Assembly (NCBI GenBank): GCA_031761405.1
Contig: JASEVX010000010.1
Coordinates: 32,065,861 to 32,129,860, forward strand
Direction: 5' to 3'
Source: Serripes groenlandicus
Lineage: Eukaryota; Mollusca; Bivalvia; Cardiida; Cardiidae
Length of the DNA: 64,000 bases
In this document: one piece after another, positions 36,851 through 59,850 of the stretch
Position numbering within the stretch: the stretch's first letter is position 1
Layout: the number at the start of each line of letters is the position of its first letter
Position numbers and translations under genes: made by a program
The notes under the pieces: model-generated
What the model saw: only the letters and a program-made list of their open reading frames with translations
What the model was told of the DNA's origin: nothing
Database searches by the model: none

Positions 36851-39800
36851 CTAAAAATCAAATGTACAGTTATGAAATGTGGAGCCAGCTAAAAAAGATG
36901 GGATGCCATTTGTCTTGGGTTCATGTGTAGGATGTGATACACTGAGAGAAGGAGATGGGGTAGATAAGTGCTGGCTATTCTGGGACTGTCCTTGTTAAAT
37001 ACTACACATTTTCTTCTGTTCACACTCGGTCAATGAAGCATCATAATGTGTAATACATTGTATATTTCTGTGACCAGTAATCTTCATGATTTTCTGAGGA
37101 TGTACACCAGCTTGAGAGAGCTTAGTAACTGTAGTTTTCCTCACACTATGATTGGTTACTTTTTTCTGGATATTTGCCTCTTTTAATGCAATCTTTAGTT
37201 AATAACCCTTTGTACAAAAGGAGTACATTTTTCAGACACTTGAACAACTTATTGAGAATTACATCTGCACTCATATGTGTGATTAATTAACAATATTCTA
37301 GTTGATCAAAACAACACTTATAATAGTTATTGAGAATTATATCATCACATGATGTGTGTCATCAAACAATAATTAATCACCTACTTAACCAAAGCAATAT
37401 CTAAAATTAAGTTTTTGGTTTTTTTAAGTACTTTTTTTGATATCAAAACTATTTTCAGACACCTGAACACATCCATTGAGAGTAACAACTTCACACATGC
37501 ATGTGTGTGTTTGATAAACAACCATCTGTTTGATCAAAACAACATTTTTCAGACACATGAACAACTTATTGAGAATTACAACTGCACTCATATGTGTGAT
37601 TAATTAACAATATTCTACTCTATCAACCAATAATCACCTACTTAACCAAAGCAACATTTAAAATTAAGTTTTTATTGTTTTTGTAAGTACTTTATTTGTT
37701 ATCAAAACTATTTTCAGACACCTGAACACATCCATTGAGAGTAACAACTTCACACATGCATGTGTGTGTTTGATAAACAACCATCTGTTTGATCAAAACA
37801 ACATTTAAAATGGACTTTTTTACATTTAAACACATTCTTTTTGATGAACATTGAAAACCATTTTCAGACATCTGAACATTGATAGTTAAACCAGAACACA
37901 TCTATGTAATTAATAAATAACAAACACATTTAAAAGGAGTGTTTTTTTCAATGAAACTGAATACCTTTTTAGCTCACCTGAGCTTTGCTCAAGGTGAGTT
38001 ATTGTGATCGCCTTTTGTCCGTCGTCCGTCGTGCGTCGACCGTCGTCCGTCGTGCGTCGTCCGTCGTGCGTCGTGCGTCAACTTCTTCTCCTCAGTAACC
38101 AGTGGGTCAATTTGGATGAAACTTCACAGAAAGCATCCTCTCAATGACCTCACCAGAATTCCTTAAATTTTTGCCTTATATGGCTATAGTGCAAACTTAA
38201 AAAATCTTCTCCTCCAAAAGTGTCAGGCTGATTTTCAAATAATTTTGTAGAAATGTTCCTTGGGTGATCCTCTATCAGATTCCTTCAAGCCATGTTGATT
38301 GGTCAAAAAACATGGCCGCCAGGGGGCGGGGCTATTTTGCCTTTTATGGCTATAATGAAAACTTAAAAAATCTTCTCCTCCATAAGTGTCAGGCCGATTT
38401 TCAAATAATAATTTTGTAGAAATGTTCCTTGGGTGACCCTCTATCAGATTCCTTCAAGCAATGTTGATTGGTCGAAAAAAAAGGCCGCCAGGGGGCGGGT
38501 GCTATTTTGCCTTATATGGCCAAAGTGAAAACTTAAAAAATCTTCAACGTCTTCTCCTCAGTAAACAGTGGGTCAATTGTGATGAAACTTCACAGAAAGC
38601 ATCCTCTTAATGACCTCACCAGAATTCCTTCAAATTTTAGGGATCCATGCAGAATTCTGGTTTCCATGGCAACGAAACGAGAAAAACTTCAAAATTCTTC
38701 TTCTCCCAAACTGGTTGGCAGATTTTCAAATAATTTTGTAGAAATGTTCCTTGGATGACCCTCTACCAAATTCCTTTAAGCCATGTTGATTGGTCTAAAA
38801 ACACGGCCGCCAGGGGGGGGGGGGGGGGTGGGCTATTTTGCCTTATATGGCTATAGTGCAAACTTAAAAAATCTTCTTCTCCAAAAGTGTCGGCCCGATT
38901 TTCAAATAATTTTGTAGAAATGTTCCTTGGATGACCCACTTTCAGATTCCTTCAAGCCATGTTGATTGGTCAAAAAACATGGCCGCCAGTAGGCAGGGCT
39001 ATTTTGCATTATATGGCTATAGTGAAAACTTAAAAAATCTTCTCCTCCAAAAGTATCTGGCCGATTTTCAAATTGTAGAAATGTTCCTAGGGTGACCCTC
39101 TATCAGATTCCTTCAAGCCAAGTTGATTGGTCGGAAACTATGGCTGCCAGGGGGCCAGGCTTATATAGCTAAAGTGGAAAACAAAAATCAGGTGAGCGAT
39201 TCAAGGGCCATCATGGCCCTCTTGTTTATAGAAACTTTAACATTTAAATTAATATTTACACCATTACACACTACAACAAATGTTTGTGAGTTATGAAAAT
39301 GCATCTGCTAGATTAAAACAACATTTTAAGATTTCTATTATTACATTGATAGTATAATTTCTTTATCAGACACTAGTACATATTTATTAAGAGTTACATC
39401 AGTACATGATTTGGGTGATCAATAAACAATTATCTGCTTGATCAATAAACAATTATCTGCTTGATCAAAATGACATTTATAATGGGTTTTCTTTCCTTCA
39501 AGAAAATATCAGTGAAGCAAAATAACAGTAAATGTAATTATAACTTACCAGGGCTCAGTATCATTCCCAGTGGTGAGTCTGTTAATTGGAATCGGTGTCA
39601 AGTAAAATGGGCTGTCTGGCTTCTTCATTTCTATAGGCCTTCTTTTGACAAATGTTTCATATAATTTCACTGGATCTCTGCAAAGAAACAAACAACAACC
39701 CATAATAATAATTTCATGTAAACATAGTAATAGCTGGAACTAGTTAACCAACACTGTATTTACTATATACTGTATTTTTTTATTTCTGACTGGTTTTGTA

Positions 39801-40654
39801 GCCAATACACAATCCTGATATCAACATTTTAAATACATGGTCAAAATACATGCTTATTCATTTAATCAATTGGATTTCAAAGGTATTGTACCTGTCATGT
39901 TGCTTTCAGATTTGTCCCATTTCTTCTCTTGGAGGTTCTCCCTTGAAAATTCCAGAAATTTTTCTCCCTCAGATGTAGATTTCATCTCTATAACCCCAAA
40001 TCTAAGCTGTCTGGCTTCGTCACGTGCCCTTAGCCCAAACTGTGTTCCAAAATTGTAAAACAGTGTTGTTTGTAAATTCCTAGGGTTGGAAGTTCCAAAC
40101 CCACCACACTTATACATCCTTTCCTCTTCATCAGCTGTGATATCGTACGACTAGTTCGGTGCTTTAACTTTTCCACGTTTGGCCAGTGTCCTCTTTTTAG
40201 CCTGAAGTGCCGCAATTGTCTTATGGAACACCCTATCCTTAAGGGACATTGGGTAACCCTTCTCTTTCAAAAGACTCTCAACGCTGTTTTTAAAGCATTC
40301 TAATGACACAGGCTCGTAATCTTCTCCATTCGTTCGTCGAATACTCACGAACATCTCGGCCAAATAGTCATTCAGGTGGGATGGCGTTATGTTTTCGATA
40401 CTCTTACTCTCACGCTTGACATGAAACAACCACCGCTGTACATTCTTTACGTCGGAGAGCGTTCTGGATAAAGTGTTCAGCTTTTACTGCTCATTTATGA
40501 ACTCTTCTACGTTCACTCCTTTCTCCTCCCGTCCCTGATGACTTTCTGTCAAATCGTTTTCAAACGGCGCTAACAAAAGTTCGATCTCCCTTTCTGACAG
40601 CTCTAGCAACTCAAACTCTCCCAACGCGTTTCTATCGATATTTAGGTCAGCCAT
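36851..40654 (-). pseudogene. KIAA1958/Crypton-like tyrosine recombinase, intron-containing, broken
   Basis: Minus strand. Part A, 40654 to about 39880, begins MADLNIDRNALGEFELLELS and carries the N-terminal core-binding region ('DYLAEMFVSIRRTNGEDYEP', 'GTQFGLRARDEARQLRFGVI'). Part B, 39677-39549, flanked by TTTGCAG and GTAAGT, reads 'VKRRPIEMKKPDSPFYL'. Part C, about 37198-36851, has the catalytic C-terminus: HSVRKT (Arg), TGHRN (His), HYDA (Tyr), then a 'GSTFHNCTFDF' end. This order matches Crypton-derived YR proteins (KIAA1958/ZMYM/DUF3504 group). In-frame stops at 40486-40484, 40153-40151 and 36997-36995 mean it is not functional as assembled. The part A donor is unclear. Splitting into exons implies either an intron-bearing element or a former host gene. 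Confidence 0.75.
37971..39224 (+). mobile_element. Hairpin-ended, HINE/Helentron-like element E
   Basis: 5' end AGCTCACCTGAGCTTTGCTC, able to form a stem (CTCACC/GGTGAG, GAGC/GCTC, loop TTT). Then comes a GTCCGTCGTGCGTCG microsatellite and about six ~190-bp repeats ('AGAAATGTTCCTTGGGTGAC', 'GCCATGTTGATTGGTC', 'GGCCGCCAGGGGGCGGG'). A sub-terminal AGGTGAGC is inverted to the 5' end, followed by a 3' hairpin GGGCCA-TCA-TGGCCC and CTCTTG. No protein. The whole element is missing at the paralogous position 36271-36280. Confidence 0.8.
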
Positions 40655-41254
40655 ATTTGTTTACATAAAAAAGTAGTCCCTAGCATATTAATTATGCAGA
40701 ATATTCGCACGCCCTTATCTACGGTCATGATCACTCCTTGACAGCGGTCATGATCGAAAAATCATGACCACTTTCTTCAATGCAAAGTGAACGGGACAAT
40801 ATTAAAGTATGCAATAATCTGTAATATATATAGCATAAACACTAACAATACTTATTTACCATCATTACCTACAGCAACAGACAAGTGTGTATAAATATGT
40901 GAAGGTTTTTTGTCAGAGTTTTGGCCCTTTTTCGACTTTTAAATTACATTGCATCAATCCAATTATTGACCTATTCCTTTAGGATATTGAAACTAGGAAT
41001 CATTTTGTACCATCATTATCTCCATCTGTAAACAAGAAAAGCTTACTCAGTCAAGGAGTTTAGTTTTGCCTTTTACTGCAAAGTTTTTGTTTTATTGTCA
41101 AGCACTGAAAAGGTCCAGCGCGCTGTCTTACGGCTGCTCTTGTTTTCTTTTGTTGAAAACCTTTAACCAGATGTTTACAAAGCCGACGACTTATTCGATG
41201 TCTTCTGCTGGGACACTCAACCAGTTCTCGTAACGAGTGTGTAGAGGTCGTAAA

Positions 41255-41335
41255 CTATATCCCGCTTTCACGGGAACCGAACTCTGTACCTTCTGATCCC
41301 GAGACCGCAGCTCTACCACTGAGCCATTTAAACTC
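41255..41335 (-). repeat. tRNA-like SINE head
   Basis: On the minus strand TGGCTCAGTGGTAGAGC (A box) and GTTCGGTTCCCG (B box) are correctly spaced, but the acceptor stem does not pair. A tRNA-derived relic, not a functional tRNA. Confidence 0.55.
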
Positions 41336-41445
41336 CTGTCTCAAACCTGTATACGTTTTGCCTCTTTAATCCTTTCCAACATTCAGACACTCATGCAGCA
41401 CAATTTTCTATTGCCAAAATGCTCTCAAGTGTTTTGCCTAGATGT

Positions 41446-42054
41446 TTAGCCCCTTCCCTCATATAGACGCCTCTGCAGCTGATCTTTTTTTAAAAACATG
41501 GCGACAAAAGAAGAAATTGCTCAAAACCAGCAATTTCTTCGTTTGTCACCATGTTTTCAACTCTATTCAATTATTGTACTTTCATTTTCAGAGAATTTTC
41601 ATATTTTTTCTAGATGTTTTCAAAATCGTCTGCTGCATCATTGTTGTATGTGGGAAAGGATTACAGAGGACTGCTTCAGACTTTTATTATGCGGGACAAG
41701 GTTAACAATCAGGCATACCACACTTGCGATACTGATAGCATGTCCTAATTAGTTGTTGAAGTCGAGTTTTATACCGACGAACCTGATTTGATTCCCTGTT
41801 TCACAAATTCAACCCGATTCACGACGCATAAGGATTAAAAACATTGCTGGAAACGGGAAATTCTCTCAAATATTTAACCCTTTCCCAAATACAGACTCTT
41901 TGTGAATCCTCCGTAACATAAGAGTCATAATCAAAATGTTATCAGCTCTTTTCAATAATAATATTTTCATTTAAAGAGATTTTTCATAATTTTGGCTGGT
42001 ATGTTTTGAAAGTCGTCTGCTGCAGATTTGTTGTATGTGGTTAAAGTTTATTGT
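41446..42054. mobile_element. Two TTAA MITEs
   Basis: 41446-41663 (core AAATTGCTCAAAACCAGCAATTT, right end GGGAAAGGATTA) and 41874-42054 (left TTAACCCTTTCCCAAATACA, core deleted, right GTATGTGGTTAAAG). Confidence 0.7.
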
Positions 42055-42133
42055 GTCCAGAATTGTAACTACTTTTCTTTCAGACGTTTTCCAAAGTAAG
42101 GCATATCTATTGCTTGATAGTTAGTTGTTTTAT

Positions 42134-42306
42134 GCCGCTTTCAACAATTGTACAATACTGGTCCATTTATCCTGACACCAGCAAGTCAGTCGAAGTGCTA
42201 ACCCCGCAACCCTGAGTGCCAAGGAGTACAACCAAAATCCCATTTTTAAAGTCTTTGGTATGACACGGCTGGTGATCGAACCCGCCACCTCCCGCACTCG
42301 GTTAGG
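42134..42306 (-). mobile_element. tRNA-derived SINE
   Basis: Reverse of the 1770-2026 type: tail (TTATGCCGCTTTCAACAATT) at the low coordinate, B box as GGTGATCGAACCCGCC. The A-box end is truncated. Confidence 0.7.
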
Positions 42307-42339
42307 CATATAAAGTAGTTTGATAGATCAACGTTTCTG

Positions 42340-42565
42340 TTAAACCCTTCCCTCATACAACAAATCTGCATCAGACGGCTTCGACAACATCTAGATAAAT
42401 TATGAACACAACTCTATAAACGAAAGTTTAATCATGCGTTAGAGTTGCAAAAATTGTTGCAAAACGTGATATTGCTTATAATTAGCAATTTCTCCTTGCG
42501 CTACAATGTTTTCATAAGTCGTCTGGCAATATGCGTCAAATTGCGTCTACAAGTGGAAAAGGTTA
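42340..42565. mobile_element. TTAA MITE
   Basis: TAAACCCTTCCCTCATACAA to AAGTGGAAAAGGTTAA, with core ATTGCTTATAATTAGCAAT. Confidence 0.7.
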
Positions 42566-42605
42566 ACTTCCCTGCGAAGCTCGTATTTCTTTTATAATGT
42601 CAGGA

Positions 42606-42774
42606 TTCCGCGGTTGCAAAGTAACTAGCGCGGCGGAGTCGGCCGGTCCGGGTTCGATTCCTGCTTACGGCGCTCTTATGGGGTTCCTTTAGATCAGGCA
42701 CAATTCCTAGCCTAATGCTGGTGTCACCCAGACATCGTTGATAAGTGTGCAGTCGCCGTGATATAAAGGAAATA
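42606..42774 (+). mobile_element. SINE whose tail runs into a satellite
   Basis: Head TTCCGCGGTTGCAAAGTAAC with B box GGGTTCGATTCC, body 'CCTAGCCTAATGCTGGTGTC', tail CAGTCGCCGTGATATAAAGG and then AAATACTGATA tandem units instead of the usual GTTGAAAGCGGCG end. Confidence 0.75.
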
Positions 42775-42858
42775 CTGATATACTGATACAACGGAAATAC
42801 TGATACAACGGAAATACTGATATAACTGAAATACTGATGTAATGAAAATACTGATATA
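42764..42858 (+). repeat. 17-bp GATATAACGGAAATACT satellite, left block
   Basis: Variants GATACAACGG, GATATAACTG and TACTGATATACTGAT. Begins inside the SINE tail at 42764 and stops at the LINE insertion. Confidence 0.85.
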
Positions 42859-44026
42859 TGAGGCAGTTAAACTAGAAAATATTCATTTAAAATTTTGCAA
42901 ACAAATACTGGGGGTAAGGTCGCAAACTCAAAATACTTTCGTTTATGGAGAACTTGGTAGATATCCACTAAAGATTAAGAGATTATTAAGAGTAGTAAAA
43001 TATTGGTTTAAAATAATTAGGTCTACAAATGAAAAATATATTAAACATGTATATGACATGATGTTGAATGACTTTCAATTATTTCCAGAAAAAAAATCTT
43101 GGGTAAAGTCGATTAGAAATATTTTTGAAAACTTAGGTTTTAATATTGTATGGTTAAACCAAGGTGTTGAAAATGTGAAATTATTTTTGTCTGTTTTTAA
43201 ACAAAGAATTTATGATAACTGTAATCAGATATGGAATTCTGATTTACAAAACTCTTCAAGAGCAAAAACATACAGACTTTATTCTGATTTCGTTTTTCAA
43301 CCATATTTAAATTCAATTAAAATCGATAAATTTAGAATCGCTCTTACAAGATTTCGTGTTTCTGCACATAGATTAGAAATTGAAGCTGGAAGATGGCACA
43401 AACCAAATAAAATACCATATAATGAAAGAAAATGTAAATTATGTAAAACTATCGAAGATGAAATGCACTTTTTATTAGAATGTCCAGTGTTTTCTGATAT
43501 ACGAATTGTATATATCAAAAAATATTACTGGAAACACTCAAGTATGATTAAATTTATTGAATTACTAAAATCTGAAAATGAAAATATAGTCAAAAACTTG
43601 GCACTATTTGTTTACAAAGGTTTTGAAATAAGGAACAACAATAATTACGTAGAGTAGTTTAGGTTTAGTTGCAGCCTTTAGAGGAAATCAATGTAGAAAT
43701 TGAGAAATTGCTGACATTGAGCAACTTCGTCACCTTCTGCAATGATTTCTAAATGATTTTTATGGGAGTTATATCTTCTCTCAAATGACTGTTACATTAA
43801 TGATTTCATTTCTATTAACTTATTATCTTTGATTAGAGTATATTAATTCATTTGTCAATCAAAGGGGAAAAAAATCTTATGTAAGTTTTCTATATTATTT
43901 TTCAAACATTTTCTCCCCGGATTTTGACCATTAGTCCGCTATTTGACTGTTAAAATGAATGTGTTATATGTTTGTGGTATGTTGGGCATATTTGCCCTTT
44001 TTCCAGAATAAAATCTATCTATAAAG
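42859..44026 (+). mobile_element. 5'-truncated LINE inserted in the satellite
   Basis: Flanked by GATATA at 42853-42858 and 44027-44032, with the same satellite on both sides. About 370 bp of 3' UTR ends AATAAAATCTATCTATAAAG. The 3' UTR holds a relic of the MITE core (GAGAAATTGCTGACATTGAG near 43700). Confidence 0.8.
42860..43657 (+). CDS. LINE ORF2 C-terminal portion, uninterrupted
   Basis: 265 LINE-derived codons are open to the TAG. The ATG of the longer frame (42842) lies in satellite DNA, so it is not the real start. It encodes the region after the reverse transcriptase active site: 'ENIHLKFCKQILGVRSQTQN', 'RFRVSAHRLEIEAGRW' and a C-x2-C-x7-H-x4-C knuckle (C198, C201, H209, C214 counting from 42842), typical of the C-terminal domain of many non-LTR retrotransposon polymerases. 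The RT and endonuclease domains are missing through 5' truncation, usual for target-primed reverse transcription. No stop or frameshift, so the insertion is fairly young. Codons are strongly A/T-ending. Confidence 0.75.
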   Translation, partial: EAVKLENIHLKFCKQILGVRSQTQNTFVYGELGRYPLKIKRLLRVVKYWFKIIRSTNEKYIKHVYDMMLNDFQLFPEKKSWVKSIRNIFENLGFNIVWLNQGVENVKLFLSVFKQRIYDNCNQIWNSDLQNSSRAKTYRLYSDFVFQPYLNSIKIDKFRIALTRFRVSAHRLEIEAGRWHKPNKIPYNERKCKLCKTIEDEMHFLLECPVFSDIRIVYIKKYYWKHSSMIKFIELLKSENENIVKNLALFVYKGFEIRNNNNYVE

Positions 44027-45075
44027 GATATACTGATACAACGGAAATACTGATACAACGGAAATACTGATATAACGGAAATACTGATATACTGATATAA
44101 CAAAAATACTGACATAACTGAAATACTCATATAACGTAAATACTGATACAGTGTATAACAGAAATACTGATATATAACGGAAATACTGATATACTGATCC
44201 AACGGAAATACTGATACAACGGAAATGCTGATATAACGGAAATACTGATATAACAAAAATATTGACATTACGGAAATACTGATATAACGGAAATACTGAT
44301 ATACCGGAAAAAACTGATATACCGTCGCCGTGATATAACGGAAATACTGAAATAACAGAAATACTAAAATACTGATATAACGGAAATACTGATATACAGT
44401 CGCCGTGAAATAACGGAAAAACTGATATACGGAAATACTGTTGAAAGCGGTAAAAAACGCCGTGATAAAACGAAAATACTGCTATAACGAAAAAACTGAT
44501 ATACTGATATAACGAAAAATACTGATACAGCGGAAATACTGATATAACGAAAATACTGATGTACAGTCGCCGTGATATATCGGAAATACTGATATACAGT
44601 CTCCGTGATATAACGGAAATACTGATACAACGGAATTACTAATATAACGAAAATACTGATATACCGTCGCCGTTTTATAACGGAAATACAGATATAACGA
44701 AAATACTGATATACTGATATAACAAAAATACTGATATACCGTCGCCGTGATATAACGGAAATACAGATATAACGGAAATAATGATATACTGATATAACGA
44801 AAATACTGATATACTGATATAACAAAAATACTGATATACCGTCGCCGTGATATAACGGAAATACAGATATGACGGAAATACTGATTTAACGGAAAAACTT
44901 ATATACCTTCGCCATGATATAACGGAAATACAGACATAACGGAAATACTGATATACAGTCGCCGTGATATAATGACAATACTGTTGAAAGCGATACACAA
45001 CGCCGTGATATAACGAAAAAACTGTTGAAAACGGTACAAAATGACGTGATGTAACAGAAAAGCTGTATAAAATCA
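44027..45075 (+). repeat. 17-bp satellite, right block, with SINE-tail units
   Basis: GATATAACGGAAATACT units are interspersed with longer ones reading CAGTCGCCGTGATATAACGG and AATACTGTTGAAAGCGGTA, i.e. a recognisable SINE 3' tail. Open frames rich in ISVFPLYQY on the minus strand are translations of the array. Confidence 0.85.
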
Positions 45076-45148
45076 CAAACTACTGTAACTGTAGCATGAC
45101 TAATTCAACTGGAGAACAATGTAGGTTTGATTGATATATTTGAATTTG

Positions 45149-45970
45149 CCGCCGTTTTCAAGCTCAATTCAGTTGGATCACGTGGCAGTGTACCAGTACT
45201 AAACGTCGTTTTCAACCACAGTTTAGTTGGATCACGAGGCAGTGTACCAGTTCTTAACGACGTTTTCAACCACAGTTTAGTTGGATCACGAGGCAATGTA
45301 CCAGTACTTAAGGCCGTTTTTATCAGAGTTAATTTGGATCACGTTGCAGTGTACCAGTACTTAACGCCGATTTCAACCACAGTTCAGTTGGATCACGAGG
45401 CAGTGTACCAGTACGTCGTTTTCAACCACAGTTCAGTTGGATCACGAGGCAGTGTACCAGTACTTAACGCCGTTTTCAACCACAGTTCAGTTGGATCACG
45501 AGGCAGTGTACCAGTACTTAACGTCGTTTTCAACCACAGTTCAGTTGGATCACGAGGCAGTGTACCAGTACTTAACGCCGTTTTCAACCACAGTTCAGTT
45601 GGATATTGAGGCAGTGTACCAGTACTTAACGTCGTTTTCAACCACAGTTTAGTCGGATCACGAGGCAATGTACAAGCATTTAACGCCGTTTACAACCACA
45701 GTTCAGTTGGATTACGAGGCAGTGTACCAGTATTTAATCCGTTTCCAACCAGAGTTCAGTTTGATCACGAGGCAGTGTACCAGTTTTTAATCCGTTTTCA
45801 ACCAGAGTTCATTTGGATCACGAGGCAGTGTACCAGTACTTAATCTGTTTTCAACCACAGTTTAGTTGGATCACGAGGCAGTGTACTAGTATTTAACGCC
45901 GTTTTCAACCACAGTTCAGTTGGATCCGAGGCAGTGTACCAGTATTTAACGCCGGTGCAGTGTACCAGTA
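45149..45970. repeat. 54-bp satellite, about 15 units
   Basis: Unit TTTTCAACCACAGTTCAGTT plus GGATCACGAGGCAGTGTACC plus AGTACTTAACGCCG. Three units near 45740-45850 lack a few bases (TTAATCCG). Reads as the reverse complement of a SINE 3' tail. Open on both strands because the period is a multiple of three. Confidence 0.9.
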
Positions 45971-46099
45971 CTCCACACAACATTTATATCCAAGTCTGGG
46001 TTAACAACACGCGGTAGTTGATCGTGTAAATAGTGTACACGCTACAGAATAACAGAATCTTAAAAGTCCAAACATATACATGAAGATTCACTTAAATAT

Positions 46100-46850
46100 C
46101 TGAAGCAGAGTGCAGGAAAACAATGAAGGAAAAAGAGAATTTCAAATAATGAGCAATGTCTTCATTTTGCTACAATGCTTTCAACTGTTCAACTAAATTT
46201 AGTAATGCTTATAGTAATAAAGAGTTTCCATAGTTTTGGCTGTGTATACAAGAAAGTGAATGAAGAACACTATTTTGACCAAACATATTCGGAAATCTTA
46301 CTTCTTCAATCCGTCCAATACTGATAATGTTTTTCTACCATTTAAGATTAAAAAGGTGATTTCATTGTATTTGGGTAAGACTTAAATACGCCAAACCTAC
46401 CACAAACATAGGTAATTTAGACAATCAAATGGAGGTCTTATGATCAAAGGGAGATAACAATTGTTTAAAAAAAGTACCGAGAAACTTATTCCCCGTGTTT
46501 GATGCTCATTGTCTACTTCTTTCCACAAGTATATACCTGTACTGATTAAGGTTGTGTTTGAGAGTATAAGAAAATAAAGAAACCAGCCAGAAGTCCATGT
46601 AGAAAGAGACGAGTGTTGCTCAATAAACAAATGAGTGACACTCTGTGAAACCAACATTAGCCTAAATATTAAACGTTTAGAAACAAGTACATATGCATCC
46701 ATGTAAATACTCCAAATAGAACTACTTAACGGAAGTTTCTTTACGAATACGCTGAATGATCTGGGTCTACAATGTCCACAAAATCCTTTAGGTTAGTTTT
46801 CGCAAAGCGTCTCTCACATTGACCTATAAATTGTCAGGGAAGTTACCCTT
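46100..46850. other. Mostly unique; one MITE core relic
   Basis: 'ATGAGCAATGTCTTCATTTT' and 'CTACAATGCTTTCAACTGTT' near 46147-46190 are a decayed TTAA MITE half. Nothing else was recognised. Confidence 0.5.
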
Positions 46851-46854
46851 CTTA

Positions 46855-47774: not shown

Positions 47775-47945
47775 GGTTCAAATGCACTGTGAATCGCTCG
47801 ATTTGATGGGTTTAAAAGGGATCATGTGACTAAATGAATTGCGTTTATTTTCCGATGAACAAAATTGATCATATGGCCAGGTCGCGGAACTACTTTCAAC
47901 ATAGAAAAGAGATCTAAATTTCAATTGGTACATGTATTTCTCTTT
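47775..47945. repeat. Dispersed repeat, copy 2
   Basis: Paralogue of 29570-29735. 47346-47774 between the satellite and this repeat has no recognised feature. Confidence 0.65.
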
Positions 47946-48071: not shown

Positions 48072-48577
48072 GTTGATATCGATGAGTTAAAAAGAATGGG
48101 TGGATTGAAAATGACGTTCTGCTTTTTGATATACCGTTAGTGGTGGATTGACCTACGTTTTGACCGAGAATTAAGATTGACCAATGAAATAACTAAACGT
48201 TATCCAATGCAAAATTGTGGGGTACAAACTACTGCTTTTGCATGGTTTTTTCATCTATTTTTTGGCAAAGGGGTAAAAAATAAAATGTATTTCAGGAGAA
48301 AAACTTTGACAATTTGAGTGAAAAGTTGATATCGATGAGTTAAAAAGAATGGGTGGATTGAAAATGACGTTCTGCTTTTTGATATACCGTTAGTGGTGGA
48401 TTGACCTACGTTTTGACCGAGAATTAAGATTGACCAATGAAATAACTAAACGTTATCCAATGCAAAATTGTGGGGTACAAACTACTGCTTTTGCATGGTT
48501 TTTTCATCTATTTTTTGGCAAAGGGGTAAAAAATAAAATGTATTTCAGGAGAAAAACTTTGACAATTTGAGTGAAAA
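48072..48577 (+). repeat. 253-bp perfect tandem duplication
   Basis: 48072-48324 and 48325-48577 start GTTGATATCGATGAGTTAAA and show no difference by eye. A very recent event or an assembly artefact. Confidence 0.9.
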
Positions 48578-48653
48578 GTTGAATTTTTCAAGATATTTGG
48601 TTAGCCCTGAAAAGGGCTGTTGTGCTCTTATAGATGATCTACTGTTTTCACTT

Positions 48654-49752: not shown

Positions 49753-49759
49753 GTTTTGT

Positions 49760-51121
49760 TTTGTTTTTAAGTGCAGTTCCACATAAAAATCAGGCAAAAT
49801 GTTCTACATGAGGGATCAACGGATTTCGATTAAATTTGTCACACAGACTAGCTGTGTGTCCAATAAAACAACCTCATATTAATGTTTGCAAAAAATGTCA
49901 CATGGTTGCTATGGCAACCAACAATGTGTCAAAAAAAAAAGTCATTTTTGGCAAAAAGGTGCTTCTTCGCATCCAAATATAAGACAAACAACAGAAATGA
50001 CATGAATAAAATCTTTATGACAGGAAAGGATAGCATTTAGCCTTCATAATTACATCATAACTTAAAGCAAAACTCTAAACTTTGTCAAAATTGTCATTTT
50101 TGCCCATTTTCAACATAAATGTTCACAATATCGGCAGCTTGATACGAAAAAACCCCATGAATGGGTTTTTTCGCTTATAGGTAACAGGTGTGAGATTTTT
50201 TTTTTTTTTTTTTCAATACCCATGAAGGTTTCTGAAATGAAACTGGAAAAATTCAATGGGGGCCGCCATTTTGGATATGTTTAAAATGCGGCCGGTCCGA
50301 CGTATAAACACAGTTTGAAAAATATTGTCGTCTAGTCTATCATTATTAATTCTAAATCGATGTTTAAGGTAATAAAAGAACTGCGTAATTTCGTGTGAAC
50401 TAACAATTTTAAGAAAAAGCGAAAGATGCGTGGAAATGAGAATGAAATATTTTGTTCCAGTTTGTCAAAATAGTCGACTAGTACCGTACTAATCAAGGTG
50501 ATCTAGACGCACGTCATTTACAGTAAAGCGCTTTACAGACACAACGAAAAATTGCCGTTTAAAGCCTTACATTTTACTGTATCCCGAATAATGACGACTT
50601 GAGACGTATCTGGTTAAATATTTAAATAGAAACAACTCCAGTGTATCGTCTAAAGTGTTGGTAAGTAGGCCTAACATTATATTGTAGAGATGTCGGCAGT
50701 CTTCGCGAAAATCTTCAATCATGACTGTCGGACAACAAATTCTTCGAACTGACAAATATTCAAACACATTCTCATTTTCAACCATCTGATTATTTTTACA
50801 ACCTGGACTACACTATATTTACATTACAGTTGGGAATTATGCAGTAAGATATAGTGGGATACATTTTAATTAAATCGTGGTACTGTGGCAAATATACAGT
50901 GTAGCGAATCCGACTTGTTATAGTTAACCAAAGTTGTGTCCCTTTGTTTAATTGGATCCATTTGTATAAACAAGTCGACAACAAAAAGGAAAAAATAATT
51001 CTGGTTAGTACTGGTTTAAATATCCATAAACTAAAGCCTTGAGATTTTTCAGAATCAGATACATGCATATATGGTCATTGCTCACAATGCATACCCAGCC
51101 TGCTGTGTATTTTGTTTATAA
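49760..51121. other. No recognised gene
   Basis: Contains a fragment (about 50040-50150, 'GCCCATTTTCAACATAAATG') related to the monomer array at 56.9-59.9 kb, and a T-run at 50197-50213. A 72-codon minus frame at 50785-50567 matches no family I know. Confidence 0.5.
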
Positions 51122-51338
51122 TTTACCCTTTCCCACATACAATAAAGTTGCAGCAGACAACTTTGAAGTTATCAAGTCCGAAAGATGGAAAATCTCAAAA
51201 TGATAGTATGAATATTGAATAGAGTTTAAATCATTGTGACAAATGGAATCATGAGCAATTTCTCCATTTGCCACTATGATTTCAAAAGTTGTCTGCTTCA
51301 GAGGCGTCAGAAAGCATCTACATGAGGGAAACGGTTAA
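51122..51338. mobile_element. TTAA MITE
   Basis: TTTACCCTTTCCCACATACA to CATGAGGGAAACGGTTAA. The core is reduced to ATCATGAGCAATTTC. Confidence 0.7.
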
Positions 51339-52030
51339 AGCCTTCGTAAAATTTTAAGGTAAATGCACCAGAAGCTTATTAAAACATCGAGTAAGTACCT
51401 TGTCAATGTCCGTGAACAGGCGGTAGTAATCTAGATTCCGCTATCCAATTGTTCAAAATAGCTAAATTAGCTAGCGCGTGAGTCTACAGCAGTACATGTA
51501 TTAGGAAGCAAAAACCAAATGAAAAGTATTTGTAGACAAAGACCATGGCTGTATTCATATTAAACTAACTAATCGAACACTAGGTCATGTGCTATTAAAA
51601 GCTATTATTAAACTGGTTGATCCAGTTAACAAAATCCTAGTGTAAATACTGGTGTATTGCTATTGCGAGGGAGTATTGAGAGATGGAGACCCGTGTTATC
51701 GTCAAGCTTTTTTATAAATTGTCTATTAGTATTAGTAATATATCTATTTACATTTGAAACTTATTTTCAACAATTGAGTATATGATGGGTAAATCAACAA
51801 TTTCTCTCATGTCACATTCTTTATGTATTAAAATCCATCAAGGGGCTTGTGAATTGTTCCCAACTTCACATGTAATCGCATGAGTGTGGTATTTCAATTG
51901 GTTAGATATTAATAATTTTCTGATTATGTAAGATATGATTCAACATTGTGTAATCACACAAGAAACTTATTATACTTGTGCCAAAATGACAAACATTTGT
52001 TTCTAGCTATGTTTTTTATTTAAATTTCAG

Positions 52031-52333
52031 GTATATTCAGGCCACTTAATTTGTGTTCGACCAAGCAAGAAAAACCAATTTCCTGTCCCTGATATGGGTT
52101 ATTTTAAATAGTAGACAACACCAGCAAGAAGACCTCTTGTAAGACGGGCAATTGAACTCAATGTCCCTGTACAGCTCGATACAGAAAAAGATGAAGAGGC
52201 GTTAATTCCCATCATGGAATGCGATAATGAGTCAAACCTGTCCTACACAGGCTACATTGGACCTCGTTTAGTGACCACTTATATACACATTACTAAGAAT
52301 TCAGAAATTTCTAAATTAGTTTTTGCTGGGTGA
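52031..52333 (+). pseudogene. Protein-like stretch with two adjacent stops, unidentified
   Basis: After a good acceptor (ATTTAAATTTCAG), one frame reads 'VYSGHLICVRPSKKNQFPVP', then TAG TAG at 52109-52114, then continues 'TPARRPLVRRAIELNVPVQL' and 'DTEKDEEALIPIMECDNESN' to a TGA at 52331. Composition (balanced charge, few low-complexity runs) looks like former coding sequence. I recognise no domain. It could be an exon plus chance extension, or a transposase relic. Confidence 0.3.
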
Positions 52334-52765
52334 TAAATCATGGCTGTGAGTTGTTTTACTATAGCCGGTGATTTTTGTGCTAACATTCTAGATTTCATGA
52401 AGGGAAGGAAACAACTTTCATAAGCAGAGACAATAGAAACTTGATGGATCTGACAGCTACTGTCGGAGCATATTTATGTAGTGCTGGTAAATTTGTGATT
52501 AAAAAACTCTGAAAACAGAGCTTGGCATAATAGTCATTGAAAAGAATAAATACTATTCTTTTAAGGACAGCAGTATTTAGAGAATCAATGATTGAAGACG
52601 ACACTTTAGATAAGATAATTCTGATTAACACTGAAAGTGTTTCGTTTTTTATTCATTGACTCATAATCATATGAAATAAATCCAATCATAGCTGTTATCA
52701 TTAATTTAACACATGAAGCAAATAAACTGAAAAATAAGCAAATTCTTAAAAGAATTGTAGCATAT

Positions 52766-53577
52766 TTAGCATTTTCTCACATAAATCAGACTACAGCAGA
52801 CCTTTTTGAAACCAACTCTGCAAAAACCTGTGCAACATCTATCAAAGGCCATGTAATAATTGTATACAATAGAAAACATTATGACAAAAAGAGAAATAAC
52901 TTGTCAGGGTTTACAACAATGTTATTTAAAGTTATAACGTCATCATTTTAAGTCATCTGCATGTGGGACAGGGTTAAACACTTATACATGCTTGAACATA
53001 TAGCTTTGGGAAAAAACATTTTATATTGTGACAAATGATAGTTTGATGTTATTCCTGAAAAGAAAATATTTTTGGAAAGGAAGAAATTCATCATTATCAG
53101 CATGTTCTCCTTTTCCAACAATTTTCGAGAAAAAATTGGAATGCATCTCCTAATATAATATCTGTCCATAGAAAACTTTTTAAGGATGGAAGAATTTTTT
53201 CTAATAGGAGAAATTTCTCCTTCACTACAATTATTCAAGAAGTTGTCTGCTACTCTTCCACAGCCAAGCATTACAAGTTTTGAGCATTTTAATTTAACCT
53301 GTTACCTTAAAGTAAATTTTGTACATGTAAATTATTTTTAGATTCTTTCTTAGTTATCCTTTCCCACATACAGACGCTACATCAGAAGTAGTCGGTTAGT
53401 GGTAAAGGGTTAAACATTTTCTACATGTAGATGCTTTCTGACGCCTCTGCAGCAGACAAATTTTGAAAACATTATTGCAAATGGAGAAATTGCTCAAAAT
53501 TGGCAATTTCTCCTTTTGCCACAATGTTTTCATCTCTATTAAATTCATTGAGATTTTCAGTATTTTTAGCCTACCTA
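52766..53577. mobile_element. Diverged TTAA MITEs
   Basis: 52766-52977 (ends GTGGGACAGGGTTAA, core lost). About 53354-53577 is a composite in which a 60-bp remnant (CCTTTCCCACATACAGACGC...GTAAAGGGTTAA) precedes a good left half and core (GAGAAATTGCTCAAAATTGG) that stops where element A begins. Confidence 0.6.
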
Positions 53578-54960
53578 TGCATGAAGTGCAAGGTGAGCTT
53601 TTGTGATCGCTCACCGTCCGTTGTCCGTCCGTTTACGTTTTCCTACAAACGACTTCTCCTCCTAAACCAATTAACCAAATTCAAAATAATATTACAGGAA
53701 TGTTCCTTGGGTGGATCTCTTTCAAACTTGTTCAAAGAATTCTATTCCATGCAGAACTTTGGTTGCCACGGCTACAAAAAAAGGGGAAATTAACCAAAAC
53801 TTAAAAAATCTTCTTGTCTAAGAGTAGAGGGCCCAGGCCTTTGATATGTGGTATGTAGCATCATCTAGTGGACCTCTACTAAGATTGTTCAAATAATAGC
53901 CCTGGGGTAAAAAATGACCCCATCCCAGGGGTCACTTGTTTTACATAGACTCATAAAGGGGAAAAACTTAAAACATCTTCTTGTCTAAAAGTAGAGGGCC
54001 CAGGCCTTTGATATTAAGTATGTAGCATCATCTAGTGGACTTCTACCAAGATGGTTCAAATTATAGCCCTGGGTTCAAAATGACCCCTCCCCTGGGGTCT
54101 ATTGTTTTACATAGACTCATATAGAGAAAAAACTTAACAAATCTTCTTGTCTAAAAGTAGAGGCCCCAGGTCTTTGATATTTGGTATGTAGCATCATCAA
54201 GTAGACCTCTACCAAGATTGTTCAAATAATAGCCCTGGGGTCAAAAATGACCTCTCCGGGGGTCACTTGTTTGACATAGATCGGGGAAAAACTTTAAAAA
54301 TCTTCTTGTCTCAAACTAGAAGGCCCATGCTTTTGATATTTGGTATGTAGCATCATTACATCTAGTGGACTTCTACCTAGATTGTTCAAATTATAGCCCT
54401 GGGGTCACTTGTTTTACATAGACTCATATAGGGAAAAAACTTAAAAAGTCTTCTTGTCTAAAAGATATTTGGTATGTAGCATCATCTAGTGAACCTCTAC
54501 CAAGCCTGTTCAAATAATAGCCCTGGTGTCAAAAATGACCTCTCTCCGGGGGTCACTTGTTTTACATAGACTCATTTAGGGGAAAAACTTTAAAAATCTT
54601 CTTGTCTAAAAGTAGAGGGCCCTGGCCTGTGATATTTGGTATGTAGCATCATCTAGTGGACCTCTACCAAGATTGTTCAAATTATAGCCATGGGGTAAAA
54701 AATGACCCCTCCCTCTGGTCACTTGTTTTACATAGATAGGGAAAAAACTTTAAAAATGTTCTTGTCTAAAAGATATTTGGTATGTAGCATCATCTAGTGG
54801 ACCTCTACCAAGATCGTTCAAATTATAGCACTGGGGTCAAAAATGAGCCCTCGCTGGGGGTCACTTGTTTTTCATAAACTCATATAGGGGAAAAAACACT
54901 GAAAACTTTTTAAGTTTGATTAAATCAGGTGAGCAATATAGGACCATTATGGTCCTCTTA
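53578..54960 (+). mobile_element. Hairpin-ended, HINE-like element A
   Basis: 5' end AGCCTACCTATGCATGAAGT...AAGGTGAGC, short GTCCGTTGTCCGTCCG run. The interior is about seven ~160-bp repeats ('TTTGATATTTGGTATGTAGC', 'CATCTAGTGGACCTCTACCA', 'TAGCCCTGGGGTCA') unrelated to those of element E. 3' end CAGGTGAGCAATAT then hairpin GGACCA-TTA-TGGTCC and CTCTTA. Confidence 0.75.
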
Positions 54961-55007
54961 TTAATTATACATGTACATATATACCATATATAGTACTTTC
55001 TCTTTAC

Positions 55008-55236
55008 TTAACCCTTTCCAACCTGGAACAAATCTGCAGCAAACCACTTTGAAAACATTTTGGTTTTATTTTGGAAAATGTATTAATAGGAAAGTGTAAT
55101 TATTTGATAGAGTAAACAAATTGTGATAAAGGGGAAAATTGTTCATCATGAACAATATGTCCTTTTGTCACAATGTTTTTCAAAAATGTTCTTATGCAGA
55201 GGTGGCAGAAAGCATCTACATGTCGAAAAGGATTAA
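55008..55236. mobile_element. TTAA MITE between hairpin-ended elements
   Basis: TTAACCCTTTCCAACCTGGA to GTCGAAAAGGATTAA, core AAAATTGTTCATCATGAACAAT. A half copy follows at about 55240-55370. Confidence 0.75.
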
Positions 55237-55508
55237 TCCTTAACCACTTACAGACTACTTCTGATGTGTCCAATGAAATGAACACATACATTTCTCATTA
55301 TGAATATTTTTTATTTTCCAACTAAGATTTTAGTAATCACCTTCAAATTCCTTGTATGTGAAAATGGGTTAATAAATGCTTCTCATATGCCATTTTATCA
55401 TATATATTAGATTATTTTTCAAAGCTTTGTGTGTAAAATATTTTCTTTCACAATATCTACAACAATTAAAGTTAAGATTTGAGCTTTAATGTTACACTTT
55501 TACTTTTC

Positions 55509-56269
55509 AGCTCACTTGTGCACAAAGTGCTCAATGTGAGCAATTGTGATCACATTTTGTCCTGCGCCTGTCCGTCGTCAACAATTGCCTTGTTAACACT
55601 CTACAGGCTACGTTTTGCATCAGATCTTCATAGACGTATATCAGATCATTTATCTCTATCAGATCTTGGACAAGTTAGAATATGGGTCATATTGGGTCAG
55701 AAACTAGGTCACTAGGCCAAATTGAAAGGAAATCGTGTTAACACTCTGGATGCTGCAGCATGTTCAAACCTTTTCAGATGTTTGTCTTGATGATATGTAG
55801 TCCCTATTTCAAATATTGGTCCTGTCTTTTTTAAAAACTAGGTCACTAGGACAAATTGAAGGAAAATCGAGTTAACACCGTAGAAGCCGAATTTTGCTTC
55901 AGCATCTTCAAATTTTGTCAGAATGTTTCTCTGAATAATATCTAGGTCAAGGTCGAATATGAGTCATGCCTGATCAAAAACTAGGTCACTAGGCCAAATT
56001 GAAGGAAAAAGTTGTTAAAACTCTGGAGGCCGCATTTCTACTATGAGCAAGTTGAAACTTTGTCAGAAGGATTGTCTTGATGATATCTAGTCCATGTTCG
56101 AATATGGGTCATATCAGGTAAAACAAAACATAGGTCAAGAGGCCAAATACAGGAACATCTTGTTAACACTGGAGGTTGCATTTTAAATCTTTGTCAGAAT
56201 AATTGTCTTGATGTGTTTTGCATTAGAAATCATTCAGGTGAGCGATCTAGGGCCATAATGGCCCTCTTG
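55509..56269 (+). mobile_element. Hairpin-ended, HINE-like element B
   Basis: 5' end AGCTCACTTGTGCACAAAGT...CAATGTGAGC. Interior is four ~170-bp repeats ('AACTAGGTCACTAGGCCAAA', 'GTTAACACTCTGGAGGC', 'TTGTCTTGATGATATCTAGT'). 3' end CAGGTGAGCGATCTA then GGGCCA-TAA-TGGCCC and CTCTTG. Confidence 0.75.
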
Positions 56270-56292
56270 TTTAAAGATCAATTTCAAACCAA

Positions 56293-56757
56293 AGGCTCAA
56301 GGTGTTCCATTGTGATCACTCACTGTACGGCGTACGTCAAACGGTCAAATATTCTCTGAAACTGCTGATGCGATATTAACCAAACTTGACATGAATGTTA
56401 CTTTGGTGACCCTCATTAAAAATTGTTCAACAATTTATTTTATACCTATAAATTGGTTTGCTGCGGTTTCAGAATGGGGTGGAAATTGCAAAACTTTAAA
56501 AATTGTTCTCCTGTGAAACCGCTTCTTCGAATTCCAAGATGTTCTATGGGTGACCCTCTACAAAATGGTTCAAGACATATTGATTGGGTGAAAAGGGTAG
56601 TCACCAAGTGGCATCAGAAAAGGGCTGGAATAATCGTCTGTTTTAGGGATAGAATTAAACAGAAATGTGACCCCCTACAATATTTGTACCAGCCGTTCAG
56701 ACCGGTTTTAAAAGGTAGTCGCCAGGTGACATCAGAAAAGGGGTGAAAAGAAGAAAT
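56293..56757 (+). mobile_element. Hairpin-ended element C, 3'-truncated
   Basis: GGCTCAAGGTGTTCCATTGTGATCACTC matches the start of the family in two parts (GCTCAAGGTG and TTGTGATCACTC). A short interior follows and no 3' hairpin. It starts 24 bp after element B ends. Confidence 0.55.
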
Positions 56758-56879
56758 TACCCAATGACCCCCGTCTAGTCAAATACTTTTAAAAATCAAC
56801 TGTAATTGCCAAATTATGCTGTTTAATTTTAAGTGTTTTTTCGTAAATAGGTAGCACCCATAGATATATTATGCACAAT

Positions 56880-59850
56880 TGATTACTACCATAGTATGAG
56901 TCATATTCTACAGAACAAGAATCGAATTGAAAACAACTCTGACCTTTTCGTTTGACAGAAATATTTTACATTGAAATGGGAGATACCTCTTAAAATAGAC
57001 AACATAGAGGTTTTTGCCAATTTTCAACATAAATTCTTCCTTCAAAACAATATTGATATCAAACAATGCTTACCAACATCTTATAAGCCAATTTCTACAC
57101 ATCAAAATTATAATTTTTGAAAAGACTGCCTTTCCATTATATTAGGTATCTTTCACTTTGTAAAGGGAGATATTTCTAAACTTCGTCAAAATTGCCAATT
57201 TGCTCATTTTCAACATAAATGTTCAAAATATAGGCAGTTTGATATGGAATATTGATAACCACCATCTTATGAGTCATATTCTACAGAACAAGAATCGAAT
57301 TTAAAACAACTCTGGATCTTTCGTTTGACAGAAATATTTCACATTGAAAAGGGAGATAAGTCTTAAAATAGACAAAATAGAGATTTTTGCACATTTCCGA
57401 CAAAGTTTTCACTTAAAACAAGAGGGCCATGATGGCCCTGGATCGCTCACCTGATTTTTTTTTTCAATTTAACTATATAAGCCCCGCCCCCTGGCGGCCA
57501 TAGTTTCTGATGGAGGGTCACCCTAGGAACATTTCTACAAAATTATTTGAAAATCGGCCTGACACTTTCGGAGAAGAAGATTTTTTAAGTTTTCACTATA
57601 GCCATATAAGGCAAAATAGCCCGCCCCCCCCTGGCCGCCATGTTTTTCGACCAATCAACAGGGCTTGAAGGAATCTGATAGAGGGTCACACTAGGAACAT
57701 TTCTACAAAATTATTTAAAAATCAGCCTGACACTTTCGGAGGAGAAGATTTTTTAAGTTTTCACTATAGCCATATAAGGCAAAAATAGCCCTGCCCCCTG
57801 GTGGCCATGTTTTTTTACCAATCAACATGGCTTGAAGGAATCTGAAAGTGGGTCACTTAAGGAACATTTCTACAAAATTATTTGAAAATTGGCCTGACAC
57901 TTTCGGAGAAGAAGATTTTTTAAGTTTTCACTATAGCCATATAAGGCAAAATAGCCCTGCCCCCCCCCCCCCTAGCGGCCATGTTTTTCAACCAATCAAC
58001 ATGGCTTGAAGGAATCTGATAGAGGGTCATCCAAGGAACATTTCTACAAAATTATTTGAAAATCGTTCTGACACTTTCGGAGGAGAAGATTTTTTAAGTT
58101 TTCACTATAACCATATAAGGCAAAATAGCCCCGCCCCATGGCAGCCATGTTTTTTGACCAATCAACATGGCTTGAAGGAATCTGATACAGGGTCTTCCAA
58201 GGAACATTTCTACAAAATTATTTGAAAATCGGCCAGACACTTTCGGAGAAGAAGATTTTTTAAGTTTTCACTATAGCCATATAAGGCAAAATAGCCCCGC
58301 CCCCCCTGGCGGCCATGTTTTTCGACCAATCAACATGGCTTCAATGAATCTTATAGAGGGTCATACAAGGAACATTTCTACAAAATTATTTGAAAATCTG
58401 CCAACCAGTTTGGGAGAAGAAGAATTTTGAAGTTTTTTTCATTTCGTTGCCATGGAAACCAGAATTCTGCATGGATCCCAAAAATTTGAAGGAAATCTGG
58501 TGAGGTCATTGAGAGGATGCTTTCTGTGAAGTTTCATCCCAATTGACCCACTGGTTACTGAGGAGAAGAAGTTGACGCACGACGCACGACGCACGATGGA
58601 CGACGGACGCCGGACAAAAGGCAATCACAATAACTCACCTTGAGCAAAGCTCAGGTGAGCTAAAAACACTTGATATCAAACAATGCTTACCAACATCTAA
58701 TAAATTTATAATGCATATTCTACAGAAAAAGAATATAATTTAACACAACCCCTGGTTATTTCGTCTTAACAGAAATAGTTCACATTAAAAAGGGAGATAT
58801 CCCTAAAATTTCACAAAATGGCAAATTTCTGCCCATTTTCCACAAAGATTTTCACTAAAAATCAAAGTTGATGTTGATATAGTGAATACTTTCAACTAAT
58901 AAGACTTATTTTACAGAACAAAAAAAATCAAATATATGAAACCGTATGCCATTCCAACATACAACACATTTGCAACAGACGACTTTGAATATATCAACCC
59001 AAAAATAGGACAAATTTCTTTAAGTGAAGATACATGTATAATTACTTGAAAAAAGTTGAAAACATTATGACAATAGAAGAAATTGCTTGTCATTATATCG
59101 AACAGTGATTACTTTCAACTTATAGGACTTATTCTACAGAAAAAAATCAAATATTAGGAAACTGTCCCTTTTGTTTATCCCTTTTCCATATTCAACAAAT
59201 TTGCAGCAGACTACTTTAAAAATTGATATTATAACTGGAAAAAGTTGGAAATATTACGAAAATTGCTTGTCATAATGTTTTCAAATTCATCTAAAGTATA
59301 AAACAAAACTTGATAACACACAGTAATTGCTATCATATAATAATTCATATTCTATACTGTAGATATGCAGTAAACTTCTTTTGAATGAAATTCATTAACA
59401 CATTTCACTGCCTGATGCCTTTATACTAATTAGTTTTGTTCAAATGGAAGATATCCTCATTGAAACTAAATAAGCAGACAACTTTCGAAAACATTTTGGC
59501 AAAATCAGAAACTTTTCATTCATTTTGTCCTCGGCATGAAAAGGGAGATAGATACCTTTAACAAGAATGCCATTTGAGTACATTTTTAACATCAATTGCA
59601 ATTAAATTTCAATCATGATCATGAAAAAGACGATTTTTATCTATTAAATTACATCCTACAGAACAAAATTCAATTATTTAAACAAAATATGCCTACTATT
59701 AAACAGAAATAATTCATGCAAAAAAGGGAGGTAATTTCCAATTTGATAAAGTTAACTTGCTATTTCAGACTGTTTTCAACATGAATTTTCATAATTAAAA
59801 TTATCCACTAAATCATGATTATTGTTGACATTTATTCGTTAATTTTCTAC
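56880..59850 (+). repeat. Diverged monomer array (~190-230 bp units)
   Basis: Units share 'GAGTCATATTCTACAGAACA', 'TTGACAGAAATATTTCACAT', 'AAGGGAGATA', 'TTTTTGC.CATTTTCAACA' and 'TTGATATCAAACAATGCTTA' in order. Element D interrupts one unit. After 58900 the units mix with MITE halves (about 58945-59090 and 59177-59285). Confidence 0.65.
57420..58662 (-). mobile_element. Hairpin-ended, HINE-like element D
   Basis: Reverse-oriented close relative of element E: minus-strand 5' end at 58662 (AGCTCACCTGAGCTTTGCTC), GTCCGTCGTGCGTCG run, the same ~190-bp interior repeats, and 3' hairpin GGGCCA-TCA-TGGCCC at 57425-57439. Flanked by AAAAC at 57415-57419 and 58663-58667, a candidate target duplication. 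Confidence 0.8.

Follow-up and report, generated by a model that had tools for sequence, protein, structure and literature searches.

Several segments of a 64,000-nucleotide (nt) stretch of Serripes groenlandicus contig JASEVX010000010.1 (the window) begin with a hairpin at a run of T residues, carry tandem repeats in their interior, and end with a palindrome. This raises the questions of which kind of mobile element they are and whether their interiors are exchanged between elements. The original prediction, made from the letters of the window, proposed that they are Helentron-like elements with interchangeable interiors. Here, we conclude, with a probability of about 0.92, that they are non-autonomous Helentron-associated interspersed elements (HINEs), which would be moved by the Rep/Helicase/endonuclease of a Helentron and the interiors of which are mostly lineage-bound arrays that are occasionally recombined.

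Four complete elements share their ends and a common layout

The four complete elements of the window, referred to as E, A, B, and D, have a T-run, a 5' hairpin, a microsatellite, a tandem array, and a 3' palindrome in common. Along the element, the order is the 5' hairpin, TTGTGATC, a GTCC-type microsatellite, the array, the sub-terminal AGGTGAGC, the palindrome, and, at T-runs, a final CTCTTG, which in A reads CTCTTA. Element E (37971 to 39224, plus strand) has ends of the type that we call alpha and 166- to 168-bp repeats. Its T-run and 5' stem-loop (AGCTCACCTGAGC/GCTCAAGGTGAG) at 37966 to 37998 are followed on the same strand by a GTCCGTC-type microsatellite (38017 to 38079), an array of ~168-bp units (38169 to 39158), and a 3' end (39188 to 39224) composed of the 3' sub-terminal inverted repeat (subTIR) TCAGGTGAGC, the palindrome at 39205 to 39219, and a terminal TCTTG. 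Element A (53568 to 54960, plus strand) has gamma-like ends, 166-bp repeats, a short GTCC microsatellite (53616 to 53633, plus strand), and a 3' subTIR and palindrome, GGACCATTATGGTCC, in which G-C is changed to A-T on both sides and which ends in CTCTTA (54925 to 54960, plus strand). Element B (55509 to 56269, plus strand) contains ~145-bp repeats of a separate family, and element D (57419 to 58661, minus strand) has alpha ends, 168-bp repeats, and its 5' T-run at 58662 to 58666. Directly behind B lies element C (56273 to 56860, plus strand; outer limits approximate), the 5' part of a decayed HINE, for which a 5'-end model search of the window identified a 5' module at 56293 to 56339 (E-value 6e-7) and a 3'-end model search of the window found no 3' end. 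A weak candidate for a further decayed 5' end, G, maps to 33411 to 33474 (plus strand; 13 bits, E-value 0.004). All four originally predicted elements are, therefore, real, while C, which lacks a 3' end, and the weak candidate had been overlooked; the original coordinates hold for B and E, whereas A starts at 53568 rather than at 53578, and D spans 57419 to 58661 on the minus strand rather than 57420 to 58662.

The modules at the ends are short, i.e., ~58 bp on the 5' side and ~35 bp on the 3' side. In all four elements, the 3' end runs from TCAGGTGAGC through a palindrome, the stem of which is 7 bp long, to CTCTTG, or CTCTTA in A; AGGTGAGC followed by the palindrome occurs four times in the window compared with a mean of 0.02 and a maximum of 1 in 100 dinucleotide shuffles. 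The 5' end is made up of a stem-loop, TTGTGAT(C/T)(G/A)C, and the GTCC-type microsatellite. These observations bear out the original claim of shared ends. As a signature of these ends, AGCTCACC...GTGATC behind the T-run marks the 5' end, and TCAGGTGAGC...GGCCCTCTTG marks the 3' end. In E and D, the subTIRs are AGCTCACCTGA (5') and TCAGGTGAGC (3'); A (AGCCTACCT) and B (AGCTCACTT) have degenerate 5' copies. The two ends are asymmetric, in that the 3' palindrome and CTCTTG were not found at the 5' end.

In comparisons with shuffled sequences, the 5' ends of E and D folded far better than expected (z -5.1 and -4.8), and those of A and B moderately better (z -2.6 and -2.4); for the 3' ends, z ranged from -2.3 to -3.3. 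The letters of the inner 5' stem vary by type with the pairing kept (GAGC/GCTC, TGCAC/GTGCA, and GTCAC/GTGAC), and poor 5' folding was seen for the arm of locus L058 and a few single variants. In the 3' palindromes of the four window elements, all 28 pair cells are standard. Models of the two ends recovered all four elements, and the 5' model alone added C and the candidate at 33411; a separate string scan for 5' ends missed A, and one of its four matches (16359) lay inside an unrelated open frame. All tested structural features of HINEs were present, i.e., subTIRs, a 5' inverted copy and stem-loop, a 3' palindrome, and a microsatellite together with tandem repeats.

The elements are highly abundant and inserted at T-runs

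We searched the 1.76-Gb genome and picked 29 additional loci by similarity to E. Using approximate patterns, 47 5' ends and 44 3' ends were identified in the window and these loci, and the flanks beyond the T-runs differ from copy to copy. At least two Ts precede 46 of the 47 5' ends (0 T, 1 end; 2 T, 5; 5 T, 27; 6 T, 13; 7 T, 1), and T follows all 44 3' ends, with one, two, three, and four Ts in 4, 9, 17, and 14 of them, respectively. In the whole genome, 10,342 exact matches to the 34-nt 3' end were counted (5,323 forward and 5,019 reverse); the reversed pattern used as a control gave 0 matches, as did an exact search of viral contigs with the 34-nt end itself.

Two window elements have empty counterparts nearby. 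E lies within a tandem segmental duplication, of which an E-free copy at 36124 to 36422 (plus strand; longer duplicate, 35873 to 36496) is 97.4% identical along 626 bp that span the junction. D was inserted into an older 186-bp array (56870 to 57418, continuing on its right-hand side at 58667 to 58925; both plus strand), other units of which act as empty copies, with the empty-site copy at 56896 to 57086.

A survey of 36 complete elements of simple structure found an empty-like match for 17 of them. The empty sites of L002, L004, and L006 (96 to 98.5% identity) each gained exactly 2 T, and all lie in arrays of the same kind. L073 (filled) and L077 (empty) provide an independent clean case, in which 771 of 801 columns are identical and 6 plus 3 Ts stand against 7 Ts. 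Because these clean empty sites gain only 2 T, any duplication of the target would be limited to TT, and a duplicated TT would look the same as Ts carried by the element. Defining exact ends from empty sites, as the original prediction had suggested, thus gave a gain of 2 T in the four cleanest cases, and the long target-site duplication that it had named as an argument against a Helentron origin was not seen in the clean empty sites.

Most interior repeats in the window support one diverging family

The original prediction gave repeat periods of 190, 160, and 170 bp, and these have to be replaced by the measured 166 bp (A), ~145 bp (B), and 168 bp (D and E). The whole interiors of the pairs A-D, A-E, A-C, C-E, and C-D resemble each other, and do so in the same orientation alone (z 6.9 to 13.6, with none of 60 shuffles each reaching the observed value), and the whole interior of B is similar to none of A, C, D, and E. 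The unit consensus of A compared with that of D/E scored above all 300 shuffles and, in a separate analysis, had z 10.7 (0 of 500 shuffles). Some pairs of units failed this comparison, e.g., the A array against the first unit of C (72 of 500) and the first unit of C against that of D/E (59 of 500). Genome copies with A-like ends and 165- to 168-bp units bridge A (z 13 to 21) and D/E (z 17 to 40), which supports that the ~166-bp repeats of A, C, D, and E form one diverging family. Repeats that seem unrelated within one window can, therefore, prove to be one family once genome copies are considered. Neither B's 145-bp repeat nor a 157-bp repeat found elsewhere exceeded z 3.3 against the 166-bp family, a value that random control segments also reach. 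The proposal of unrelated interiors outside the pair D and E consequently holds for B, the 145-bp repeat of which is unlinked, but not for A, C, D, and E.

The edges of the D and E arrays match best by position, and inner units are about equally similar across both; this pattern fits local turnover of units. A model of two lineages, "first unit versus array unit," was dropped, since the expected split ranked second among all 10 splits. We also observed that E carries its first unit twice, at 38078 to 38172 and, mid-array, at 38544 to 38638; the duplicate may stem from unequal exchange or from template switching within one element.

Interiors mostly follow the type of the 5' end

To pair ends with interiors independently of the latter, we used the first 30 3' ends on contig 1, for 19 of which a 5' end was present within 1,500 nt. 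An array of units of at least 60 bp was found in 15 of these 19 elements. The 5' types were assigned by eye, with class references taken partly from L033, L037, and L046 themselves; with these assignments, alpha 5' ends were combined with the D/E repeat in 5 of 5 elements, gamma ends with the A-type repeat in 6 of 6, and beta ends with the 145-bp repeat in 5 of 5. Delta ends had the 157-bp repeat in 2 of 2, with an added D/E tail in L033, and L058, the only one of its type, had the 145-bp repeat. The interior, thus, mostly follows the type of the 5' end, and the pairing is mostly stable.

Other combinations were also observed. An identical 34-nt 3' end is present on both 166-bp and 145-bp interiors, and another 3'-end variant on both 166-bp and 157-bp interiors. 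L007 and L009 combine zeta-type 5' ends with the D/E repeat, and 2 of 55 elements, L013-196 and L033, are composites. In L078 (835 to 1805, minus strand), the 157-bp repeat of the delta elements, as aligned with L055 and L033, lies between other ends, which by eye read TTTTTAGCTCTACTGG... on one side and ...CCAGTAGAGC, a palindrome, CTCTTG, and TT on the other, with GCTCTACTGG/CCAGTAGAGC as the subTIR pair. A further small element with hairpin ends, which contains a GTCC microsatellite (CCCCTCGGTTACGAG... to ...GGTGCCCTTG), apparently interrupts this HINE-like L078 element. The L013-196 chimera was considered as proof of mobilized exchange and rejected: four of five matches to its junction are exact, and all of these have one and the same 5' flank, as expected for one locus that was copied (the fifth match has 3 mismatches, so the comparison of flanks rests on the four exact copies).

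Helentron-type proteins are encoded in the genome, and one subfamily carries a Rep remnant

Helitron_like_N (PF14214) had 133 matches above the cut-off in the genome, with two at some loci (among the best 150 of 168 candidates scored), and none in 14 control genomes. L067 and L068 encode PIF1 and Exo_endo_phos, and L066 and L062 encode Helitron_like_N and DUF6570. By their domain content, the Rep/Helicase loci L067 and L068 are of the Helentron type, i.e., Rep/Helicase with a C-terminal apurinic-type endonuclease. In L077 and L078, the letters of an open stretch after the endonuclease frame suggest a single-strand-binding (RPA-like) protein, a kind of protein that published Helentrons carry. 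In the window, a Pfam search with nine open frames, out of the 24 that reach 120 amino acids, gave no match above the cut-off, and no Rep/Helicase was found among these nine.

Downstream of the L067 frame, a 156-bp array (5.7 copies) is followed by the palindrome GTGAGCAGTAGCTCAC and then ATATTTCTTG before TT. This tail is an apparent candidate for a Helentron 3' end with the same plan in other letters. Stretches related by BLAST to the 156-bp array (positions 4173 to 5082 of the reverse complement of L067) lie in the flanks of elements in L004, L006, L009, L018, L028, L037, and L055, and the array unit of L006 compared with the L067 array had z 10.2 (0 of 300 shuffles). These stretches are best read as arrays into which HINEs inserted.

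Among the downstream stretches of nine Rep/Helicase loci, only L073 had clear matches to the element ends, and the L067 locus had a weak 5' match (E-value 7e-4). Three candidates for the tail of an autonomous partner were rejected and read as insertions: the HINE 246 bp behind the L073 frame is missing from the sister copy L077; a second, decayed HINE, which both L073 and L077 carry, comes with a 5' module of its own and with repeats of the 145-bp type; and the HINE of L078 has full 5' and 3' ends of another type.

A search among the fetched loci revealed that the delta-ended L033 contains 34 codons similar to the Rep/Helicase frames of L076 (E-value 1e-5) and L065/L066 (E-value 8e-4). At least 40 copies of this stretch are dispersed in the genome (best 40 of 682 candidates), and 39 of these are 95 to 96% identical to it. 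Both remnant copies on contig 1 that fall within the range of the 3' ends listed are followed in the same orientation by an exact 34-nt 3' end, at distances of 272 and 235 bp. None of the 40 copies lies within 100 kb of a Helitron_like_N match, as compared by eye. The remnant connects the ends with a Helentron protein, through either descent or capture.

Other repeats in the window

The window also contains 19 copies of a dispersed palindromic hairpin element of ~96 to 125 bp (GAAAACATTGTGRCAAAAGGAGAAATTGCTC...GAGCAATTTCTCC...), e.g., at 3639 to 3734, 22020 to 22115, and 53448 to 53543, which looks like a separate small inverted-repeat family and is also present behind the L067 Helentron. An irregular AT-rich satellite with 17/25-bp units (ATACTGATATAACGGAA) extends from 42759 to 45061 and adjoins a 275-amino-acid open frame without a Pfam match above the cut-off. 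At 48072 to 48582, a 253-bp unit is tandemly duplicated with 100% identity and may reflect a very recent duplication or an assembly effect. To the left of E, the region from 35459 to 37820 consists of overlapping tandem segmental duplications of 250 to 420 bp with 97 to 100% identity.

Discussion

The original reading of these elements as HINEs is well supported by their layout and shared ends, the near-zero change at the target in the clean empty sites, the 10,342 3' ends, the Helentron loci, and the Rep remnant. Several observations weigh against it. A compensatory change in the 3' stem was found in one sequence only, and 123 of 500 shuffles matched it in the control. E and its own empty site are equal in length at the junction, and the net gain among the 17 empty-like matches was +2 in only 6, with +1 in 5, +3 in 2, and 0, +6, -5, and -6 in one each, all alignments with gains other than +2 having <96% identity. 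None of the nine Rep/Helicase downstream stretches (L067 to L075, 3' side only) contained an autonomous element with matching ends. The candidate 3' end of L067 is a single locus, for which a later insertion is possible, and the 5' end of this Helentron was not located in 3.5 kb. Finally, the 3' subTIR lies ~26 bp from the terminus here compared with 38 to 60 bp in mite HINEs, as described in the passages of PMC4067079 on these elements.

Three other origins can be weighed against the same data. Cut-and-paste miniature inverted-repeat transposable elements (MITEs), mobilized by a DDE transposase and duplicating a TT or TTTT target, would also have sub-terminal inverted repeats, and the gain of 2 T at clean empty sites could be a TT duplication; moreover, Pearl-like bivalve elements were first named MITEs. 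We nevertheless consider this origin unlikely, because the ends are asymmetric, with the palindrome and CTCTTG confined to the 3' side, because the four cleanest empty sites have no duplication beyond T (which is compatible with a fixed TT duplication), and because an end-matched subfamily carries a Helentron Rep remnant. Canonical Helitrons begin with 5' TC, end with CTRR 3', and insert between A and T. They would account for the 3' hairpin a few bases from the end, the little or no duplication, and the rolling-circle proteins in the genome, but the CTCTTG ends, the T-runs at 46 of 47 5' ends, the T after 44 of 44 3' ends, and the presence of subTIRs and a microsatellite make this assignment very improbable. 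That the elements are ordinary satellite fragments dispersed by segmental duplication in the absence of transposition is hardly credible given their exact shared ends, the 10,342 3' ends, and empty sites with unrelated flanks, even though some copies do lie inside duplications (the L013 composite and the tandem duplicate around E).

A refinement of the HINE reading is true module exchange, in which ends are repeatedly re-fitted with the arrays of other lineages via template switching or recombination. Same 3' ends on different repeat families, the 157-bp repeat between other ends in L078, the composites L013-196 and L033, the zeta 5' ends with a D/E interior in L007 and L009, and the recurrence of the L033 remnant in at least 40 places are in agreement with this possibility. 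By contrast, the interior follows the 5' type among the 19 elements chosen blind to their interiors (L033 having an added tail), the four exact L013 junction copies represent one locus that was copied, selection on short ends accounts for shared ends even if no exchange takes place, and divergence instead of a swap may explain the ends of L078. On balance, we regard repeated exchange as possible, at somewhat below even odds. The original notion of interchangeable interiors accordingly survives in the composites and in one 157-bp repeat with two pairs of ends, but not as a general rule, since interiors mostly follow the 5' type and those of A, C, D, and E belong together. Tentatively, the ends and satellite interiors could be separable parts, with ends re-fitted by rolling-circle template switching with other arrays or with pieces of Helentron genes, and the resulting composites may spread; we give this idea the weight of a plausible but slightly disfavored one, a weight that was raised by the 157-bp repeat lying between other ends in L078.

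In the HINE reading, a Helentron Rep/Helicase/endonuclease would recognize the ~58-bp 5' and 35-bp 3' modules and, following the passages of PMC4067079 on such elements, nick at T-runs. A single strand would then be copied by rolling-circle or peel-and-paste replication that stops at the 3' hairpin, and the product would enter a T-run, with no more than 2 T of the target duplicated. The arrays would grow or shrink by unequal exchange or slippage, diverging mostly with their own lineage, and modules would now and then be recombined between lineages. Exact ends and empty sites assign this very abundant family of repeats to the HINE class, and a very common element, probably copied by rolling-circle replication, carries satellite blocks around the host genome.

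The elements belong to a known kind, and similar ones have already been described in oysters and flies. A search of the literature for the end sequences as text listed unrelated titles. HINEs are described in the relevant passages of PMC4067079 as having subTIRs, a 3' palindrome, variable flanking Ts, and an unmodified target. There, HINE-Mo of a mite and DINE-1/INE-1 of Drosophila resemble the Serripes elements in these respects as well as in having subTIRs 2 to 4 nt from the 5' end and a microsatellite; relative to those accounts, arrays of 145- to 168-bp units are common here (15 of 19 elements with units of at least 60 bp). The satellites of the Crassostrea gigas Helitron-N3/N4/N28... group share, in the part of PMC8268682 concerned with them, a 53-bp start box and a 42-bp end box, which are nearly the same lengths as those of our modules, the likeness being one of lengths and not of letters. 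Pearl/DTC84/MgE elements and the BIV160/Cg170 satellites also place ~160-bp repeats in mobile elements, and BIV160 and Cg170 share two conserved motifs (excerpts of PMC5139131 and PMC7492417); A and D/E share blocks similarly, a likeness by description only, and these blocks hint at a possible link to the BIV160/Cg170 family.

A close parallel is with the oyster Cg_HINE elements as presented in the sections of PMC7492417 that deal with them. Their left flank has a subTIR, an inverted copy, and a GTCY-type microsatellite, their central repeats are 138 to 181 bp, their right flank of ~60 bp has a subTIR and a palindrome, and they insert at T-rich or TT targets with no target-site duplication. 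As here, the pairing of flanks and repeats is stable, group 2 combines related flanks with unrelated repeats, and elements with two arrays occur. The autonomous partner could not be related to these elements in oyster, according to the same sections. Unlike in that account, and comparing descriptions rather than letters, the Rep remnant in Serripes links one end-matched subfamily to a Helentron protein, and this dispersed subfamily with the same ends provides a handle for finding the autonomous partner of HINEs.

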